Shown here piece after piece: positions 17,612-32,314 of a stretch of 35,156 nt of DNA. Each line of letters opens with the position of its first letter. Within the stretch, counting starts at the first letter, position 1. The notes beneath the pieces were generated by a model, which saw nothing but the letters and a program-made list of their open reading frames with translations, was not told the DNA's origin and made no database searches. Source of the DNA: Promethearchaeota archaeon (lineage in GTDB: Archaea > Asgardarchaeota > Lokiarchaeia > Sigyniarchaeales > SOKP01); assembly GCA_004375715.1 (NCBI GenBank), contig SOKP01000119.1, positions 1 through 35,156 of the forward strand. The letters run 5' to 3'. A program made the translations under genes and the position numbers.

Positions 17612-17758
17612 ATTTATATCCACCATTTTGTATAAAAACACTTAAAAATTAATTAATCTATTGCGAACATTTCTTATTTTAAATATATCTTTTGTGAAAT
17701 ATATCTTTACTATAATCTTAAAGTTAAAAACATTAAAGCTGGTAATATTTTTGTTATT

Positions 17759-17774
17759 AAAAAAAAAAAAAAAA
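17759..17774 (-). terminator. T16 run, probable terminator after the metF remnant
   Basis: A run of 16 A on the plus strand is a T16 tract on the minus strand, 27 bp beyond the stop of the metF remnant. Archaeal transcription usually ends at such T tracts, so the relic locus keeps its terminator. Confidence 0.55.
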
Positions 17775-17801
17775 GAATAAAAATGTGTGTATTCTTTTAA
17801 T

Positions 17802-18161
17802 TTATCCGTTGATAATACTATCTAATTTTGGAAAAATCCGAGGATAATGGACAGCCATACAATGAATTCCGTCAAGAAGGTTTTTTTTCCGCAATTCTGA
17901 TATGAAGGGTTTAAAGAAATCGTAATTGTATTGATCGTATACTTCTTTACGCTGCTTTTTATCAGGAAACTCTGTCTTCACGCTCTTCCACTTAGCTAGA
18001 ATCTCTTTAGGAACACTTACTATTAATAGAAGAATAGGAAGCACGAATAATAGAATTTTACCAATTCCAGAGACTTATTTGACCATTTTGCCTTGAAACC
18101 GTTCCTTTTTAATTATTTTAGCTAAATCTTTTTCTAATTCTCTTTCCATTTTATAATTCAT
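17802..18161 (-). pseudogene. Decayed metF (methylenetetrahydrofolate reductase) copy
   Basis: The last 65 or so codons clearly match the C-terminus of the intact MetF at 22363-23301: VSVPKEILAKWK versus VSVPKDLLKALK, then DFFKPFISELRKKN versus DFYEPFIKEIQKTT, and GIHCMAVHYPRIF versus GIHCMAVHYERLF. Upstream in the same frame lie a TAA stop at 18075-18077 and, before it, a start at 18161 with a KDLAKIIKKERFQGK stretch that may be the old N-terminus. About 200 codons of the middle, with the active site, are missing. So this is a metF duplicate with large deletion and a stop. The C-terminal match is firm, the N-terminal part is only a suggestion. Confidence 0.7.
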
Positions 18162-20602: not shown

Positions 20603-21625
20603 TTGTATAAATTTAAATCTGAAGTCAATAAAATTGACGATGTCTATCGAATTAAAATTGATGTTCCATTTGCAGTAAAGTTCGTTTGTCTTTATCTTTT
20701 TAAATTAAATGATCAATACATTCTAATAGATGCAGGTTTAAATATGGGAAATTGGAGTAAACTATTTTTTAAAGCGTTGAATGATATAAATATACGCATT
20801 GAAGATATTAATTATTGTTTTATTACTCATCTTCATTTAGATCACATAGGATTGGTAAAAACGCTTAAAAGAAAAAATCCAAACATGAAAATAGTGATGA
20901 ACGATATAACTCATAAGATTTTGAGATGGGAAACACACGATTCAAGTTTGGAAGAACTAAAAACTGAAGCAAAAAAAGTTGCTAATCTGATGATAAAATA
21001 TGGAATTAGCGAAGAACAAGGGAAAAGAGTGGTCCAATTCTTCACATTTTGGCCGAGACTTTTACGCTACCAAAAACCAGATGTAATTGTACGCGATAAT
21101 GATACATTTTTAGATGATTTAGAAGTAATTTGGACTCCAGGTCATAGCTTTGGCCATACAGCCATTTTTAATGCTAAAAAGAAATATCTTTTTTCTGGAG
21201 ATCACATCCTTTCGAGAATTACTCCACATATCGGGAATTTTTTAATCCCCAATACTCTTAAGGATGAATATGAGAAGTACGATTTTAATAACATTTTAGA
21301 CCATTATCTAAACTCGTTAGATCGAATCGATAAGTTAAATGCAAAGATAATTTTCCCTGCTCATCAAGACATAATATATAATCCACATGAACGGATTTTA
21401 GAAATAAAGAAGCATCACGAGAATAGGTTAGCAGAAATTTCAAATTTGATCAAAGAAAAACCTAAGACTCCGTTTGAAATTTCTCAAATTCATTTTGGAA
21501 CGGATTTAGACGAAATTAATTCATTTATGGCTTTAAGTGAAATTTTAGGACACTTACTTTTTCTCGAAAATCTCGGAAAAATAGATAAATTCGAAAAAAG
21601 TGGAAAGATTTATTATAAAAGTTAA
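20603..21625 (+). CDS. Metallo-beta-lactamase-fold hydrolase
   Basis: This 340-residue protein has the MBL signature THLHLDH (H76, H78, D80, H81), then H181 in GHSFGH, D200 in SGDH and H254 in FPAHQD, which together form a dinuclear metal site. Residues 288-340 (PFEISQIHFG to the end) look like a small winged-helix or helical cap typical of glyoxalase II-like and related MBL hydrolases. The substrate cannot be read from the sequence. The start is TTG at 20603, with AGGT a few bases upstream. The ICMT-like methyltransferase gene follows after 5 bp, so the pair is co-transcribed and may act on a related thioester, lipid or prenyl compound. Confidence 0.88.
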   Translation: MYKFKSEVNKIDDVYRIKIDVPFAVKFVCLYLFKLNDQYILIDAGLNMGNWSKLFFKALNDINIRIEDINYCFITHLHLDHIGLVKTLKRKNPNMKIVMNDITHKILRWETHDSSLEELKTEAKKVANLMIKYGISEEQGKRVVQFFTFWPRLLRYQKPDVIVRDNDTFLDDLEVIWTPGHSFGHTAIFNAKKKYLFSGDHILSRITPHIGNFLIPNTLKDEYEKYDFNNILDHYLNSLDRIDKLNAKIIFPAHQDIIYNPHERILEIKKHHENRLAEISNLIKEKPKTPFEISQIHFGTDLDEINSFMALSEILGHLLFLENLGKIDKFEKSGKIYYKS

Positions 21626-21630
21626 AAAAT

Positions 21631-22230
21631 ATGGCGTTCCTCTTGAGAGAATGGATTAATTTTATAGTTATGATTAGTTCCTCTTTACTTCTTACCATTT
21701 TTTACATTAAAAGCGTTAAACCGGCGACACTTGAGAAAAAAATAGGTGAAGTTGCGTATAAAAGGTGTTATCATTATCGAATATTAGCGAGTTTATTCAT
21801 GGTTTTAATTTTAATTAACCAAATCGTCTATTTTTATTATCCTCTTCCAATAATTTTTCCTCGATTCTTCCCTTGGGATTATTGGGTGTCAGTATTAATT
21901 GCAATCCTAATTGCTGTGCCGAGTCTTCTAATAATGCTTAAAGGCGTTCGTGACGCAGGAGAAGAAACAATCAGACCATCAAGGGAGAATCCTCTTTATG
22001 GTGGTATATATAACAAGATCAGGCACCCTCAAGCTATAGGAGAACTCGGTACGTGGTGGATCGTACCTTTCTTAGTTAATTCTCCTTTTCTTGTTATTTT
22101 TTCTTTTATATGGATACCAATTTTCTACTTGTTTTGTGTTTACGAGGAAAAAGATCTTGAACTCAGATACAAAGAAGCATATATAGAATATAAAAAGAAA
22201 ACTGGAATGTTTTTTCCCAAACAGTGTTGA
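21631..22230 (+). CDS. Isoprenylcysteine methyltransferase (ICMT)/PEMT-like membrane methyltransferase
   Basis: This 199-residue membrane protein has hydrophobic segments at about 6-27, 47-68, 80-104 and 142-165. Its C-terminal half carries the family signature: GGIYNKIRHPQAIGE (SAM-binding RHP motif), then a hydrophobic helix and EEKDLELRYKEAYIEYKKKTGMFFP, close to the EE-x-L-x3-(F/Y)-G-x2-Y-x2-Y pattern. These enzymes methylate isoprenylcysteine, phospholipid or other membrane substrates. Asgard small GTPases are known relatives of prenylated eukaryotic proteins, but no CaaX ending is seen in the GTPases of this window. Co-transcribed with the MBL-fold hydrolase gene. Confidence 0.85.
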   Translation: MAFLLREWINFIVMISSSLLLTIFYIKSVKPATLEKKIGEVAYKRCYHYRILASLFMVLILINQIVYFYYPLPIIFPRFFPWDYWVSVLIAILIAVPSLLIMLKGVRDAGEETIRPSRENPLYGGIYNKIRHPQAIGELGTWWIVPFLVNSPFLVIFSFIWIPIFYLFCVYEEKDLELRYKEAYIEYKKKTGMFFPKQC

Positions 22231-22362: not shown

Positions 22363-23301
22363 CTAGAAGTTCTTTAATAAAGGCTCAAATAGTCTTTCGT
22401 AATGCACAGCCATGCAATGGATACCTGCAGCTTTAGTGGTTTTCTGGATTTCCTTGATAAATGGTTCATAAAAGTCAATATTAATCTTATCGATAACTTC
22501 ATTCCGCTTTTTTTTATCATCTTTGTACTCCTTTTTTGCAGTCTTTAAAGCCTTCAAAAGATCCTTTGGAACTGAAACGCCAGGGATGTACTCATTGAAA
22601 TACCAAGCAATGCCGTAATTTTTTATAGGAAATAGTCCTAGCAATACGGGAACATTGAATTTTTCTAATTCTTTTAGGAATTCTTTGGCATCATCTATGT
22701 CAAAAGATGTTTGAGTTTGAATGAAATCAGCGCCAACTTCTACTTTTCTTCCTACTTTTAAGATTTCGGGTTCTCTTGGGTTTGAGTTTGGGTTAGCGGC
22801 ACATCCCACATTCATTTCGATTTTTCCGCCTTCAATTTCATTTCCCTTTAAATCAGTACCGTCATCTACCATTTTAGAAACGAGATCAATTAACTGTGTG
22901 GAGTCTAAATCGAATACAGGTCTAGCATTCTGATGATCTCCAAGAGCAGTATGATCTCCAGTTAAAGCAAGTATATTTTTTAGGCCAAGTATCGCTCCAC
23001 CTAATATATCGCCAAATAAGGCAATTCGATTTCTATCTCGAACAGTCATCTGCCATATCGCTTCCAAGCCAACTTTTTCTTGAACTAAGTAGCAAGGAAC
23101 CATGGAACAAGTATAAGCATCTCCTTGTGGTCCATCCGTCACATTAGCAGCAACAATCTTTCCCGTTTTTTTCATTTCTTCCGCAGAATGTAGGATAGAA
23201 GACAAATCAATCATCTTCTTTGGCTCTAATTCACCAGTGAATAAAAATTTACCTTCCCTCATAGTTTTTACTAAATTACTATATGCTGGTCTTTTTGTCA
23301 T
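22363..23301 (-). CDS. metF: 5,10-methylenetetrahydrofolate reductase
   Basis: Complete 312-residue MetF, the flavoprotein that interconverts methylene- and methyltetrahydrofolate. Clear family landmarks are the N-terminal FTGELEPKK (E24/E26 as acid residues), AANVTDGPQGD, QMTVRDRNR, ALTGDH, FIQTQTSFD, NVPVLLGLFP and GIHCMAVHYERLF. No fusion to MetV is seen. It is the last gene of a three-gene operon, 4 bp after metV, with an AAGGAGGAG ribosome-binding site inside the end of metV. This suggests a MetFV-type reductase as in acetogens and Asgards. Direction (C1 oxidation or reduction) is not decided by sequence. A decayed second metF lies at 17802-18161. Confidence 0.95.
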   Translation of the reverse strand: MTKRPAYSNLVKTMREGKFLFTGELEPKKMIDLSSILHSAEEMKKTGKIVAANVTDGPQGDAYTCSMVPCYLVQEKVGLEAIWQMTVRDRNRIALFGDILGGAILGLKNILALTGDHTALGDHQNARPVFDLDSTQLIDLVSKMVDDGTDLKGNEIEGGKIEMNVGCAANPNSNPREPEILKVGRKVEVGADFIQTQTSFDIDDAKEFLKELEKFNVPVLLGLFPIKNYGIAWYFNEYIPGVSVPKDLLKALKTAKKEYKDDKKKRNEVIDKINIDFYEPFIKEIQKTTKAAGIHCMAVHYERLFEPLLKNF

Positions 23302-23304
23302 TTT

Positions 23305-24000
23305 CTATTTCTCCTCCTTTATTGGTTCTTCTTCGTTCGTATAAGATTTATTAATATCAATAAACCGTGGACTTGACCAAAGTCTATAGTTTCTTGGTGG
23401 ACGGTATTTAGTAAAAAGATCCATTCTATTAAATTTTCTTAGGCGTTCGTATATCTTTATCCAAGCACATTCGTGTATATATCCACCAACTTCGCATTTA
23501 CCGTCAACAGTCCCACCACATGGTCCGTTACTCAAGTTTTTAGCACATCCGGCCATAGGACACACTCCACCAGTAGCACCAAGTAAACACTCTCCGCATG
23601 TTTCACAATATTCAGCAAAACTATTTTCTGCATTATTTTCTGCCCCTCCAAACATACTATTTTGAGCAGGATAGGTAAGAATATTTTCAAATATTCGATT
23701 CATCATGACAACGCCTAATCCGCAGGATAACGATACTATCGCATCGTATTCCTCAATAAAAGGTCGAACGGTAGTTGCTGCAATTCTATCGTCACATTGC
23801 CTAAGTACTGTTATAGCTTTCCATTTTAACTCTTTACCCTCGACTTTTGCTTTTAATTCGAGCATTTGACCAAGATTTTTCGCTTCAGCTATAGATCTTG
23901 GAGGTTGACAACATCCATCACACCCAGTAACTAAAATTTTTGAATATTGTTTTATCATATCGTATATTTCTTCTATATTTTTAAGTTCTGTAATTATCAT
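23305..24000 (-). CDS. metV: MetV, Fe-S/zinc subunit of methylenetetrahydrofolate reductase
   Basis: This 231-residue protein is a MetV, the C-terminal-type partner of MetF. It has a dense cysteine set: C27, C30, C31; C69; C93; C132, C135 and C138 in CETCGEC; C147, C152, C161, C169 and C178 in a GGVCPMAGCAKNLSNGPCGG stretch. The latter is the MTHFR_C domain signature. Acetogen studies report that MetV binds Fe-S clusters and zinc and is required for MetF activity. Its start ATG follows a GAGGG ribosome-binding site. The upstream gene encodes an HdrA/GltD/MvhD-like fusion, so the trio probably forms one reductase complex. The last residues are charged and may be a linker. Confidence 0.93.
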   Translation of the reverse strand: MIITELKNIEEIYDMIKQYSKILVTGCDGCCQPPRSIAEAKNLGQMLELKAKVEGKELKWKAITVLRQCDDRIAATTVRPFIEEYDAIVSLSCGLGVVMMNRIFENILTYPAQNSMFGGAENNAENSFAEYCETCGECLLGATGGVCPMAGCAKNLSNGPCGGTVDGKCEVGGYIHECAWIKIYERLRKFNRMDLFTKYRPPRNYRLWSSPRFIDINKSYTNEEEPIKEEK

Positions 24001-24024
24001 TTTAATTTTTCCCTCATAAACATC

Positions 24025-26757
24025 TTAATTTTTAGCATTTGCCGTTTCAAGCGACATACTTATTGACTTAAAATCAGTTTCAATTGATCCTAAATTTTTA
24101 ATTTTAGTAATAAAATCATTCATAATTTTTGAAAATACTTTTTCTTCACTAGGAGAGAACCATTCTAAATTGTATCGTTCAGGGTTGATTCCAATTTCTC
24201 TTAATCCTTTGGCAATTTGTCTGAACCTCCTCTGAGTATCCAAATTACCCTCAACATGATGGCATTTACCAAGATGACATCCTCCTATTATTACTCCATC
24301 AGCTCCATTTAAAAAAGCTTGGAGTATAAAACTTTTACTTATGGCTGCAGAACACATCACTCGAATAATTTGCACATTAAGCGAACTTTGATATTGGTAT
24401 AGACTTGCTAAATCTGCTCCAGAGTAGCTACACCAACTGCATAGAAACGCTAGAATTTTAGGATGCAGTTCATCTTTTTTATCCTGTGGAGTGTAATTGA
24501 TGATTTGTTCTATTCGATCCCTACCAAAACGGCTCATGGTTATGGCTTCCCCCGGACATTCTGCGACACAGTCTCCACAACCCTTGCATAACTGAGGGTC
24601 CACCTTCGAAACATTTAAGCCAGCTTCAAATTTTACACCTACAGAATTATAGTTACAAGTATCAGCGCATCTATTGCAACCAATACATAATGCAGTATCT
24701 ACGTGTGCAATTGGATTAATGATTTCCCATCTATAGTCAGTTAATTTTCGAAGATCAAAACACGATAACCACTCACCAGGAGTTAAAATTACATTATCAA
24801 TGTCAATAGATATCGTTTCACTAAATTGACTACTATCAATAGAATTGGCAACACATTTTTTCACATTTTCCGCGCATTCAGTACAAATTCCACAGCTGAG
24901 ACATCTATTAGCTTCCATGATAGCAAGGTTCTCGTCCCATTCTAGTAAAAATTCTTTAAAATTAGTTTTTCTCTCGTCTGGATGTATTTGTTCAGGATTT
25001 TTTCGTGGTTCTAGATCTATTCTCTCCCTTCTCTTCAATTCCTCAAATTTCACTAAATCTTCATCATTATAATCTGGAATTGTTTCTACAAAGGATAGTT
25101 TCTCTCCTTTTAAGTATTGATTAATAACAATTGCCACTTTATTACCAGTTGCTATCGCATCAATAGCCGCGCCTGGACCAGTAACAACTTCACCTCCAGC
25201 AAATACTCCTTCTTTTGAGGTTTGAAAATTACCATGATCAATCTCTATTCCTCTACCAACATTTATGTCCTTATCTAAAAATGACAAATCAGCGGCTTGC
25301 CCAATGGTAACAAAGACCATATCACACCTAAGCATGTCTTCTGAGCATGCTCCAAATACAGGATTGAAACGCCCTTTTTCATCGTAAACCGACTCACAAA
25401 CAACTGTTTCTAAACCAATAACTTTACCATTTTCGCCTATAAATTTATCTGGACCTAAACTAGTGTGAAATACAATTCCTTCTTCCCTTGCCTCTGTTAC
25501 TTCCCATGGATGGGCAGGAAGAATTTCTTCAGATTCTAATGTGACCATGTGGACCTCCTCGGCTCCTTTCCTCAATGCAGTTCGTGCTACATCAACAGCA
25601 ACATCACCACCTCCAATCACTAAAACATTTTTGCCTACAGTAACCTCTTCTCCCAAACCACATTTTTTAAGAAAATCTATTCCATAAAGAACATTTTCAA
25701 GATCACTTCCTTCAATTTTTAGCTCTCTGGCAAGTTGTAATCCCACGCCAATAAAGACTGCATCGAAATCTTTAAGGAGGTCATCAATAGTGGGTCCAAG
25801 TGGACCAATAGGAGAATTTAACTTTATTTCAACACCATACCTTTTGATGTGATCAATATCTGCCTGTAAAATTTCGGGAGGTAATCTATAATCGGGGATT
25901 CCTAATCTTAACATTCCACCAGCAACTGGAGATTTTTCAAAGATAGTAACTGGATATCCTAGCCTTCCCAGATGATAAGCTACAGTTAATCCAGCAGGAC
26001 CAGAGCCTACAACAGCTACCTTTTTTTCTTTCTTATTCTCTAAGTATTTAATCTCTTCATTTGAATTTTCTCTTATGTAATCAGCAACAAACCTCTTTAA
26101 ACCACAAATATTAACGGGTTCTTCTATTTCCCCTCTATTGCAAGCGGATTCACATGGATGAGGGCAGACCCTCCCAATAGCAGAAGGGAGCGGACATCTT
26201 TCTCGAATGACATTGAGAGATTCTTGGTATTGCCCTTTGATGATTAAATCAACATAATCCTGACTCTTAACATGAGCAGGGCATGCGTTTTCACAAGGTG
26301 GAATCCTTCGTTTTTCCATTAGAATTTTCAATGGGGCAATTGCTGAAAATTGGGAATTATTTCCATCCAATTCTTTTATTTTATCTCTATTCTTTAAAAG
26401 ATCTATAAACGGACACTGTTTTATGCAAGCTTTATCTTCAGAATTAATAGTTTCAACCTGACTAAGACTCTTCTTATAGATGGTTGCTTTGAATTTCCCG
26501 GGTTCTCCTTCTAAACTTATGATATCTGCGTTTCTTATCAATTCTATATTATTATATCCATTAAGGCCAGCAAATTTTAGGGGAATTAGGCATGTAGTAC
26601 AATCATTAACTAAGATTTTTTCTTGATTTGTATTGATTCTTGTTAGAGGGCCTTTCTCTATTAAATATACTCTAAACCCAGAGTCTGCTAAACCGATAGA
26701 AGCTTGTATACCGTCTATACCACTACCTATAACTAAAACGGAATTTTTTTCACTCAT
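24025..26757 (-). CDS. HdrA/GltD-like flavoprotein fused to ferredoxins and an MvhD domain
   Basis: This 910-residue protein is a mosaic. Residues 1-40 hold an FAD-type Rossmann motif VIGSGIDG, as in HdrA. Residues 150-230 are the GltD/Fer4_20 Cys region (C155, C159, C188, C198, C202, C206). Residues 246-540 form the FAD/NAD(P) oxidoreductase module (GSGPAG at 251-256, GGGDVAVDVAR at 382-392, GGE). Residues 619-740 have ferredoxin clusters (C619/C622/C625/C628; C691/C694/C697/C701; C724/C727/C730/C734). Residues 765-885 are an MvhD-like hydrogenase iron-sulfur domain (C773, C776, C802, C827, C832). It leads the MetV-MetF operon and likely passes electrons between NAD(P)H, ferredoxin and methylenetetrahydrofolate. 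Flavin-based electron bifurcation is plausible but not provable here. Confidence 0.9.
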   Translation of the reverse strand: MSEKNSVLVIGSGIDGIQASIGLADSGFRVYLIEKGPLTRINTNQEKILVNDCTTCLIPLKFAGLNGYNNIELIRNADIISLEGEPGKFKATIYKKSLSQVETINSEDKACIKQCPFIDLLKNRDKIKELDGNNSQFSAIAPLKILMEKRRIPPCENACPAHVKSQDYVDLIIKGQYQESLNVIRERCPLPSAIGRVCPHPCESACNRGEIEEPVNICGLKRFVADYIRENSNEEIKYLENKKEKKVAVVGSGPAGLTVAYHLGRLGYPVTIFEKSPVAGGMLRLGIPDYRLPPEILQADIDHIKRYGVEIKLNSPIGPLGPTIDDLLKDFDAVFIGVGLQLARELKIEGSDLENVLYGIDFLKKCGLGEEVTVGKNVLVIGGGDVAVDVARTALRKGAEEVHMVTLESEEILPAHPWEVTEAREEGIVFHTSLGPDKFIGENGKVIGLETVVCESVYDEKGRFNPVFGACSEDMLRCDMVFVTIGQAADLSFLDKDINVGRGIEIDHGNFQTSKEGVFAGGEVVTGPGAAIDAIATGNKVAIVINQYLKGEKLSFVETIPDYNDEDLVKFEELKRRERIDLEPRKNPEQIHPDERKTNFKEFLLEWDENLAIMEANRCLSCGICTECAENVKKCVANSIDSSQFSETISIDIDNVILTPGEWLSCFDLRKLTDYRWEIINPIAHVDTALCIGCNRCADTCNYNSVGVKFEAGLNVSKVDPQLCKGCGDCVAECPGEAITMSRFGRDRIEQIINYTPQDKKDELHPKILAFLCSWCSYSGADLASLYQYQSSLNVQIIRVMCSAAISKSFILQAFLNGADGVIIGGCHLGKCHHVEGNLDTQRRFRQIAKGLREIGINPERYNLEWFSPSEEKVFSKIMNDFITKIKNLGSIETDFKSISMSLETANAKN

Positions 26758-27243: not shown

Positions 27244-27924
27244 ATGAAAATTACAGTATCAGGTCCAACCCAAAGCGGTAAATCGAGTTTTATTAAATAT
27301 TTTGACGAAAAAGCTTTGAATGTAGAAGCAAAAGCAAGAGATAATAAGTATTATACCGTTGGAATGGACTTAGGAAGCGTAAAATTAAATGGATTTGATG
27401 TCTTTTTATTTGGCACGCCCGGTTTATTAAGATTTAATGTTATGAGAGATGTAGTAGCCCGAGGAGCTGATGGTCTTGTTTTTTTGTTTGATGCGGCCCA
27501 CCCAGAAAAAGATGAGGACGCAATAATTATCTTAAACTCTCTTCGAAAAACCATAGGGCTTGATACTCCTATAGTTTATTTGGCCAATAAACAAGATATT
27601 GCTGGAGCTAGACATAACGAAATAGTAAGATCTCAAAACTATTTAAAAGACGACGCAATGATTTTTCCAACAAGTACACGGACGGGAGAGAATTTGAACG
27701 AAGCTCTCAAATATCTTGTGAATCAAATTTTTGATCATTACTCTTCTCTCCTTACGGTGCTTCGTTCATATGAAACTGATATTGAGGGATTAGCCGCAAA
27801 ACTAAGTAAAAACCCTGTTGAAATGAGGGATTTATTAAATAATCTGGAAATAAAAAGATTTATTGAAGTAGATAGATTAAAACGGACGTACACAGTAAAG
27901 CAGGGATTGAAACTCTTGATATAG
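27244..27924 (+). CDS. Ras-like small GTPase with C-terminal winged-helix-like domain
   Basis: This 226-residue protein opens with a GTPase: G1 GPTQSGKS (residues 7-14), a switch-I threonine around T38 in KYYTVGMD, G3 FGTPG (56-60, with TPG in place of DxxG), G4 NKQD (115-118), and G5 near TSTRTGEN. The G3 change removes the usual Asp/Gln pair that aids hydrolysis. Residues about 165-226 (EGLAAKLSKNPVEMRDLLNNLEIKRF, then VDRLKRTYTVKQGL) look like a winged helix, unusual after a small GTPase. I recall such GTP-binding proteins in Asgards and some Euryarchaeota, without assigned roles. It could link nucleotide state to DNA or protein binding. It stands alone, divergent from the metV-metF operon. 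Confidence 0.85.
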   Translation: MKITVSGPTQSGKSSFIKYFDEKALNVEAKARDNKYYTVGMDLGSVKLNGFDVFLFGTPGLLRFNVMRDVVARGADGLVFLFDAAHPEKDEDAIIILNSLRKTIGLDTPIVYLANKQDIAGARHNEIVRSQNYLKDDAMIFPTSTRTGENLNEALKYLVNQIFDHYSSLLTVLRSYETDIEGLAAKLSKNPVEMRDLLNNLEIKRFIEVDRLKRTYTVKQGLKLLI

Positions 27925-31858: not shown

Positions 31859-32314
31859 ATGAAAAAAGAAACTTTGGACGAAATTGACGAAGAAATTATT
31901 AAAATTTTACAAGAAAACGCTAAGACATCTTATCGAGAAATTAAAGATAAACTTAATATTTCGATTGGAACCATTCATAATAGAATTTCGAAATTAGAGG
32001 AAAACAAGATAATAGAAGGATATACACTTAAACTTAATAACGAGAAATTAGGTTATAAGTTAACCTTTTTAATAAGAATTAATATTGATGGTAAACACAC
32101 GCAGAAAATCTTAGAAGAAATAACACGCAAACCAGAAGTGTGTTCAGTATTTCATACAACGGGAGAGCAGTCTGCAGCACTAATATGTCGATTTAAAGAA
32201 GCTCAGGATGTGCACGACTTTATCCGAGAATTAAACGAGAAAGAATTTATAACTAAAACTAATTCCAATATGGTTTTAAAAGAATATAAAAATTCGTCAA
32301 TTATCATTTTGTGA
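31859..32314 (+). CDS. Lrp/AsnC-family transcriptional regulator
   Basis: This 151-residue protein is a standard Lrp/AsnC regulator. The N-terminal helix-turn-helix spans about residues 5-55 (LDEIDEEIIKILQENAKTSYREI, SIGTIHNRISKLEENKII). The C-terminal RAM ligand-binding domain, residues 60-150, has the strand pattern FLIRINID, KPEVCSVFHTTGEQSAALICRF and TKTNSNMVL. Lrp proteins sense amino acids or related ligands as dimers or octamers. It is divergent from the thermosome gene and convergent with msrB, whose 3' end is 5 bp away. Which genes it controls cannot be read from the window. Confidence 0.93.
   Translation: MKKETLDEIDEEIIKILQENAKTSYREIKDKLNISIGTIHNRISKLEENKIIEGYTLKLNNEKLGYKLTFLIRINIDGKHTQKILEEITRKPEVCSVFHTTGEQSAALICRFKEAQDVHDFIRELNEKEFITKTNSNMVLKEYKNSSIIIL

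Follow-up and report, generated by a model that had tools for sequence, protein, structure and literature searches.

Gene clusters that link metV and metF with HdrA and MvhD are known from marine Chloroflexi, from acetogens (PMC9430772) and from Syntrophoarchaeum (PMC9012536; here and below, published work is represented by portions of the papers cited). In the HdrCBA-MvhD-MetVF system of Moorella thermoacetica, the metVF-linked HdrA (1487 aa) carries a GltD domain inside its TrxR/HdrA domain together with an MvhD-like domain, and this GltD-bearing HdrA oxidises NADH at 190 U/mg (PMC9430772). GltD/NfnB domains also occupy the inserted-ferredoxin region of type III HdrA (PMC12054007) and of HdrA9-11 of ANME-1 (PMC9012536), and type Ia HdrA has MvhD fused at its C-terminus (PMC12054007). 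Here we analysed a 35,156-nt stretch of DNA from a Promethearchaeota archaeon (assembly GCA_004375715.1, contig SOKP01000119.1, positions 1 to 35,156; hereafter the window), in which metV and metF are preceded by the gene of a 910-aa protein with a GltD-type front and an MvhD tail. Its domains, chimeric make-up, synteny and missing HdrA part are read from the sequence, and we put at roughly 55% the probability that it is a linear electron-input subunit between NAD(P)H and MetVF that arose by replacement of an HdrA-HdrA front end.

Like the Moorella system, the 910-aa protein is linked to metVF, has GltD within an HdrA/TrxR domain and carries an MvhD-like domain. It differs in its length, its archaeal host and probably its use of tetrahydromethanopterin (H4MPT), and its unit lacks HdrB/HdrC, a complete HdrA TrxR domain and the glutamate/lysine signature discussed below. 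The features of an Hdr-type methylenetetrahydrofolate reductase (MTHFR) are thus present in part: HdrA/MvhD share a unit with metV and metF, but HdrB and HdrC are absent from it. Unlike type III and type Ia HdrA, the protein combines the GltD insert and MvhD in one chain, is missing most of the TrxR domain and stands beside metVF. The preliminary description had contrasted it with acetogens that keep these parts separate, a contrast that falls away because the Moorella HdrA already holds both GltD and an MvhD-like domain (PMC9430772). What appears to be new is the combination: a GltD front and an MvhD tail in one chain beside metVF, no HdrBC in the unit, an incomplete HdrA flavin domain and a visible front-end replacement, the single parts being already known. 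The portions of PMC12054007 and PMC9012536 used here report no archaeal GltD-inserted HdrA beside metVF and leave the kind of metVF-linked HdrA in Syntrophoarchaeum unstated; no description of such a chimera beside metVF was found in the open-licence papers searched.

The three genes form one tight unit on the reverse strand, with intergenic gaps of 24 and 3 nt: the 910-aa electron-transfer protein (24025-26757, -), MetV, the 231-aa Fe-S partner of MetF (23305-24000, -), and MetF, the 312-aa catalytic subunit of a methylene-tetrahydrofolate (THF)/H4MPT reductase (22363-23301, -). Pfam places the MTHFR domain in MetF (PF02219, 1.8e-31) and the MetV C-terminal family in MetV (PF12225, 1.4e-29), and the matches of all three proteins are far beyond chance, so that the genes and parts first listed for this locus stand. 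MetV and MetF share 92% and 96% identity with their counterparts in G145 (G-numbers denote genomes of the phylum, G000 being the one under study; L-numbers denote fetched loci, L073 being that of G146), and this MetV is the only one found in the assembly, which comprises 320 contigs and is 84% complete. No HdrB or HdrC gene lies at 22363-26757 (HdrBC was not searched for elsewhere in the genome) and no hydrogenase gene lies in the unit. Among 24 genomes of the genus, 23 have a match to the ESCRT protein VPS28, this one included, against none of 14 controls, which fits an Asgard origin.

Within the 910-aa protein, Pfam recognises Fer4_20 (residues 153-231), Pyr_redox_2 (245-538), a ferredoxin (684-741) and FlpD/MvhD (768-890). 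Residues 1-135 (26353-26757, -) correspond to the first part of the FAD domain of HdrA (TrxR type) and contain few cysteines of the inserted ferredoxin; residues 7-117 align to positions 146-258 of 5odc_A, where this domain starts, within a homology that spans residues 5-117. The HdrA-type FAD motif noted earlier is therefore correct, but only the first part of the domain that carries it is present. Residues 150-552 (25102-26310, -) form a GltD/NfnB/StnC-like FAD and NAD(P)H module with the Fer4_20 Fe-S part, followed by residues 553-680 (24718-25101, -), which hold the GltD part's C-terminal Fe-S motif (Cys 619-635) together with a leftover strand of HdrA. A 2[4Fe-4S] ferredoxin domain (residues 684-745; 24523-24708, -) and an MvhD/FlpD domain (765-892; 24082-24465, -), both of the native metVF-linked type, complete the chain. 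Residues 680-745 align to the C-terminal ferredoxin of HdrA (5odc_A 573-638), and HdrA residues 259-572 have no counterpart in the alignment. The protein accordingly has the type III order, with GltD at the inserted ferredoxin (HdrA 1-117, GltD 145-552, ferredoxin 684-741), and lacks the part of the TrxR domain with E356 and K409. The GltD part has the GltD fold, with Rossmann domains for FAD and for NAD(P)H, and in structure comparison it matches 5jca_L (TMt 0.77) and 4ylf_B (TMt 0.79). By sequence and fold its closest GltD relatives are the StnC/NfnABC large subunits (8oh5, 9bov, 9n5u; 40-42% identity). StnC itself differs in being fused to NuoG/Fdh-like domains (PMC10482914).

Judged from alignments and trees, the 910-aa protein is a chimera of a truncated GltD-inserted HdrA front and the ferredoxin-MvhD tail of an HdrA-HdrA-ferredoxin-MvhD protein. 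In G082 a protein of 768 aa (HdrA-GltD-ferredoxin) is 61% identical to residues 7-751; its counterparts in G136 (782 aa) and G103 (785 aa) reach 53% identity to the front part, and none of the three has an MvhD domain. Residues 683 to about 900 match the C-termini of the nearest type of ~1150-aa HdrA-HdrA-ferredoxin-MvhD proteins at 56-60% identity over some 215 residues and other such proteins at 44-51%; with the long protein of G142 the alignment is longer, 302 residues at 47%. The junction falls at the first CxxC of the ferredoxin (residues 676-691; 24685-24732, -), the alignment resembling the 768-aa G082 protein on its left and the metVF-linked HdrA-HdrA-MvhD type on its right. In the GltD tree the chimera is sister to the 768-aa protein (support 98/96) on an ordinary branch of 0.22. 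The ferredoxin-MvhD tree places it inside the metVF-linked HdrA-HdrA-MvhD clade (99/98; 85/76 for this clade in a tree of MvhD alone) and, more weakly, with its ten nearest relatives (92/76); its branch there is long (1.03), and its exact place is unsure according to a warning of the tree program. The disagreement between the trees of front and tail points to two histories in one protein. The earlier view of a one-chain electron-transfer partner of MetVF with an unusual domain order is supported.

Synteny identifies the probable native state of the locus. Among 20 metV loci fetched from relatives, the ~1150-aa HdrA-HdrA-ferredoxin-MvhD protein precedes metV in 19, the contig of the remaining one ending too early. 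It stands directly before metV, with no HdrBC between, in 11 of the 20 and two genes before it in eight, where genes of HdrC and HdrB size intervene (Pfam-checked in L082 only). Ferredoxin-MvhD is thus the constant partner of metV. These proteins (L068-L086) share the locus and the tail with the chimera, and differ in their front of two HdrA domains with a CC...K motif. No metV was found within the 18, 11.6 and 19 kb fetched around the three HdrA-GltD proteins (of G136, G103 and G082); both MetV matches of G136 and of G103, and the best one of G082, are on other contigs. The concern that the fusion might occur in unrelated contexts thus applies in part, since these closest relatives of its front stand without metV in the fetched 11.6-19 kb. 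Of the full fusion, no second example turned up among the 227 genomes of the phylum that were compared. That count refers to single open reading frames spanning the whole protein among the scored candidates, at most four per genome. Apparent full-length matches in G136 and G103 were rejected, as they cross stops and represent separate genes (782 + 142 aa and 785 + 143 aa), and one in G137 was not counted, because it runs into the end of its contig and is flanked by genes similar to those around the 1648-aa protein of G135. When contigs were scanned with the 910-aa protein, the single hit was an unrelated one in Flavobacteriales (33%, residues 241-311), and the claim of uniqueness covers only the 227 genomes.

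From this we infer an electron path, docking mode, cofactor, direction and absence of bifurcation as follows. NAD(P)H would be oxidised at the GltD-type FAD, and single electrons would travel through the [4Fe-4S] clusters, the C-terminal 2[4Fe-4S] ferredoxin and the [2Fe-2S] site of MvhD to MetV, and on to the MetF flavin for the reduction of methylene-H4MPT, or in reverse for the oxidation of methyl-H4MPT. The gene would have arisen through a swap beside metVF, in which a GltD-inserted HdrA front took the place of the front of a native HdrA-HdrA-ferredoxin-MvhD gene, the ferredoxin-MvhD tail being retained as a plug onto MetVF. With such an input subunit, NAD(P)H can probably drive MetVF by way of one simple polypeptide that takes the place of a large Hdr complex. 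More tentatively, and at somewhat less than even odds, one domain graft at this locus would have converted, within a genus, an Hdr-type methylene-H4MPT reductase (possibly F420-linked and bifurcating) into a linear NAD(P)H-linked one, giving a fifth, minimal class of MetVF in which the tail is the plug and the front is interchangeable. The lineage studied here, with its GltD front, and relatives that have the HdrA-HdrA front offer a natural before-and-after comparison for learning whether bifurcation can be dispensed with at this step, and the GltD front and MvhD tail beside metVF amount to three proteins open to expression and assay.

MetVF-RnfC2 is the form found in Acetobacterium woodii. 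In this third type of MTHFR one added subunit gives MetVF access to NADH (PMC9430772), which makes it the closest functional resemblance to the present unit. RnfC2 belongs to another family, with no RnfC domain in the 910-aa protein and no Pfam match to the RnfC family in the unit.

The tail also records what may have followed the graft. The ten long proteins nearest to it have 149 invariant positions, of which 102 are conserved in the chimera, whereas each of the ten keeps 95-100% of the positions invariant in the other nine; all 13 invariant cysteines, including those of MvhD, are kept. The cluster ligands are thus preserved while the rest of the tail changed fast, as would be expected after the loss of old partners, with relaxed constraint as the alternative. 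An extreme form of the latter, that the chimera is a decaying gene, could draw on this divergence, on the branch of 1.03 and on the relic state of a nearby metF2, and yet we regard it as the least probable reading of all, given an open frame of 910 codons, the intact cysteines, the ordinary GltD branch and MetV and MetF genes so close to those of G145. That two genes were wrongly joined in metagenome assembly is hardly more plausible. The assembly is fragmented and the chimera was seen once, but genes of the relatives lie on both flanks, outside the machine: an MBL-fold hydrolase and a PEMT-like gene downstream of metF (20603-22230, +), and upstream a divergent Ras-like GTPase (27244-27924, +; 90% identity to L073, 79% to L082) and a PEPCK gene shared with L082. 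With both flanks native, an assembly error would have to comprise two separate joins here. GC and GC3 are moreover even across the junction (GC3 of the two halves 0.231 and 0.243), with no sign of foreign-DNA composition in the front half, and the native front half was not found elsewhere in the assembly, although one that is 84% complete cannot prove its absence. Repeats around the locus are weak and diverged.

The preliminary description had suggested that the protein perhaps bifurcates electrons. In that case the GltD flavin would split the electrons of NAD(P)H as in NfnB, sending one to MetVF and one to ferredoxin via the N-terminal clusters. The GltD/NfnB fold with its conserved arginine (R291), the many Fe-S motifs, the bifurcation proposed for the Moorella complex (PMC9430772, PMC9012536) and the whole Stn and 9bov complexes, titled as bifurcating, speak for it. 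Bifurcation by HdrA depends on E356 and K409 (PMC9430772, PMC12054007), which correspond, in an alignment read by eye, to E217 and K270 of the long protein of G145. The CC...K motif around this site occurs in all 18 long proteins examined (a truncated one of G116 was left out) and in none of the four formed by the chimera and its three HdrA-GltD relatives; among ten other GltD-bearing proteins seven carry it, while those of G184, G195 and G213 lack it as judged by this pattern. At the proximal cluster of the GltD part, the ligand is Lys170 in StnC, where bifurcation is reportedly lost, and Glu in NfnB (PMC10482914). The chimera has Lys221 at this position in the alignment, as do 8oh5_C, 9bov_A and 9n5u_A, and Glu is found in 4ylf_B and 5jca_L. 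As the whole complexes 8oh5 and 9bov are titled electron bifurcating, the lysine argues only that the GltD domain itself is not the bifurcating site; the arginine at the R201/R239 position, kept as R291, does not discriminate. Of the features of Nfn, the protein thus has the GltD fold but lacks the Glu ligand to the proximal [4Fe-4S] cluster, and an NfnA-like domain ([2Fe-2S] plus a second FAD) is absent from the unit and scanned neighbours, the rest of the genome not having been searched. Since the E356/K409 half of HdrA is missing and the cluster ligand is Lys instead of Glu, HdrA-type bifurcation by the 910-aa protein is unlikely on sequence grounds, and we consider the NfnB-like version improbable as well.

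Energetics point the same way. With E0' near -320 mV for both the methylene-H4MPT and the NAD(P)H couple, almost no driving force would be left for bifurcation from NADH, and the step would be reversible; THF, whose couple lies at -200 mV (PMC9430772), would leave room. The carrier is more likely methylene-H4MPT than the tetrahydrofolate substrate named at first, because Mch is present in 62 of 65 family genomes, including this one, FTHFS in none of the 65, and Mer (TIGR03555) in none of them over the curated cut-off, a divergent Mer being possible. Matches below the cut-off to Mer-like, luciferase-type proteins occur in 49 of the 65 (none in this genome) and may be other luciferase-like proteins. 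MetVF thus probably substitutes for Mer, as proposed for MetF of ANME-1, which branches with those of uncultivated archaea including Asgards (PMC9012536). A near-equilibrium couple with H4MPT also makes room for the oxidative direction, in which methyl-H4MPT would be oxidised and NAD(P)H made in a reverse Wood-Ljungdahl pathway, as suggested for ANME-1 with its Mer/MetF switch and its HdrA/NfnB idea (PMC9012536). Homoacetogenesis has also been proposed for Lokiarchaea (PMC10667645), and we hold the oxidative direction to be quite possible while not favouring it; it is compatible with an NAD(P)H-MetVF input subunit.

The nucleotide is less clear, with a lean from the sequence towards NADH. Residues 406-408 read TLE where all five aligned Nfn/Stn structures, among them 8oh5, 9bov and 9n5u, keep YRR, and the arginine pair of YRR binds the 2'-phosphate. 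The Rossmann motifs are VGSGPAG for FAD and IGGGDVA for NAD(P); the latter is a GxGxxA, which has been read as NADP-type, GxGxxG being read as NAD-type, with the Rossmann domain that was scored left unstated in the text concerned (PMC12054007).

The tail is the likelier docking plug because ferredoxin-MvhD is constant before metV and because MvhD of Sporomusa pulled down MetF (PMC9430772). Alternatively, the MvhD tail may serve another partner (a hydrogenase, an Hdr unit or a membrane protein), while MetVF is contacted by the front (GltD/HdrA) or in trans by another protein, such as HdrBC or HdrA paralogues, for instance those on contigs C86 and C107. MvhD is the entry point in the Sporomusa model (PMC9430772), the genome retains paralogous HdrA-HdrA/MvhD clusters on C86 and C107, and the HdrA-GltD proteins of G136 and G103 adjoin HdrD-like, MvhD, HdrA-HdrA and FrhB-like genes. 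We nevertheless find such an arrangement rather unlikely, as the unit has no hydrogenase or HdrBC gene, in more than half of the relatives' loci metV follows the long protein without HdrBC in between, and the C86 and C107 clusters are paralogues, those on C107 grouping with clusters of other genomes.

Several observations speak against the linear NAD(P)H-MetVF subunit, and the first of them lowers our confidence in it. In the Sporomusa model electrons enter at MvhD, cross HdrA and leave through HdrCB to MetVF, a polarity opposite to that of a tail acting as plug; 75% of Sporomusa MvhD was in the membrane fraction, where it is thought to be a membrane link; and Strep-tagged MetV pulled down HdrA and MetF but not HdrB, MvhD not being among its tested prey (PMC9430772). 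The missing YRR and the GxGxxA motif conflict as markers of NADH and NADPH. The AlphaFold model of the 910-aa protein has a mean pLDDT of 69 and is confident mainly in the GltD part, residues 660-762 and other stretches falling below 50, too low to derive cluster geometry from. A search of solved structures with MetV (E 0.01) returned no relative, and the chimera is known from a single, incomplete genome.

Part of the relatives' machinery is missing from the window. Ahead of the long protein G145 has two more HdrA-like genes and an MvhD gene, and G146 (L073) has an FrhB/FdhB-type (F420) gene beside its HdrA/MvhD genes on the opposite strand. Searches (tblastn) with the upstream HdrA and the FrhB-like protein found nothing significant in the window except the chimera, and none of the 28 window open reading frames compared matched the remaining ones of these genes, the chimera again excepted. 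The upstream HdrA of G145 finds at best 54% identity in this assembly, and the native front half at best 63%, in a paralogue on C107, where MetV and MetF would lead one to expect far more than 63%. Also absent is the Lrp/AsnC gene found after metF in L069, with only a distant Lrp paralogue at 31874. Loss of HdrBC through the graft was considered and rejected, since nearest relatives such as L073 also lack HdrBC in the fetched locus. At 17700-18050 (-), the final ~70 codons of metF2 (remnant at 17811-18020, -; 83% identity over 70 aa to MetF2 of L069) are fused to the beginning of another gene, a homologue of one encoding a 495-aa protein, and the relic has an in-frame stop in its upstream part; metV2 and a 505-aa gene, which lie between these genes in L069, are gone. 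This region is a probable deletion scar of the relatives' second metV-metF unit.

Further GltD-bearing proteins occur in this genome and in relatives. In this genome, contig C297 (L053, 12805-19341) encodes two more of ~920 aa, one gene apart, with 42% and 39% identity to the chimera over the matched parts. A 1648-aa Moorella-like protein with HdrA-GltD, a second HdrA, ferredoxin and MvhD occurs in L041 (5964-10910), L042 (5548-10494) and L043 (4982-9928), with an HdrD-like gene ahead (Pfam-checked in L041); the 16-18 kb fetched around it contain no metV. The HdrA-GltD-ferredoxin gene of G136 and G103 is preceded by an HdrD-like gene (CCG domains, confirmed for G136) and followed by an MvhD gene, with an HdrA-HdrA gene, a second MvhD and an FrhB-like gene (likewise confirmed for G136) further on. 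A shared cluster, HdrD-like / HdrA-GltD-ferredoxin / MvhD / HdrA-HdrA / MvhD / FrhB-like, spans L038 (3457-12222; HdrD- and FrhB-like genes checked) and L039 (1810-10562), a sizeable Hdr assembly that combines modules of the NAD(P)H and the F420 type. Finally, contigs C131, C3 and C58 of this genome carry frames resembling HdrA and MvhD that are interrupted by TGA codons, which possibly encode selenocysteine; selenoprotein HdrA and MvhD have been described in Lokiarchaeia (PMC9723677).

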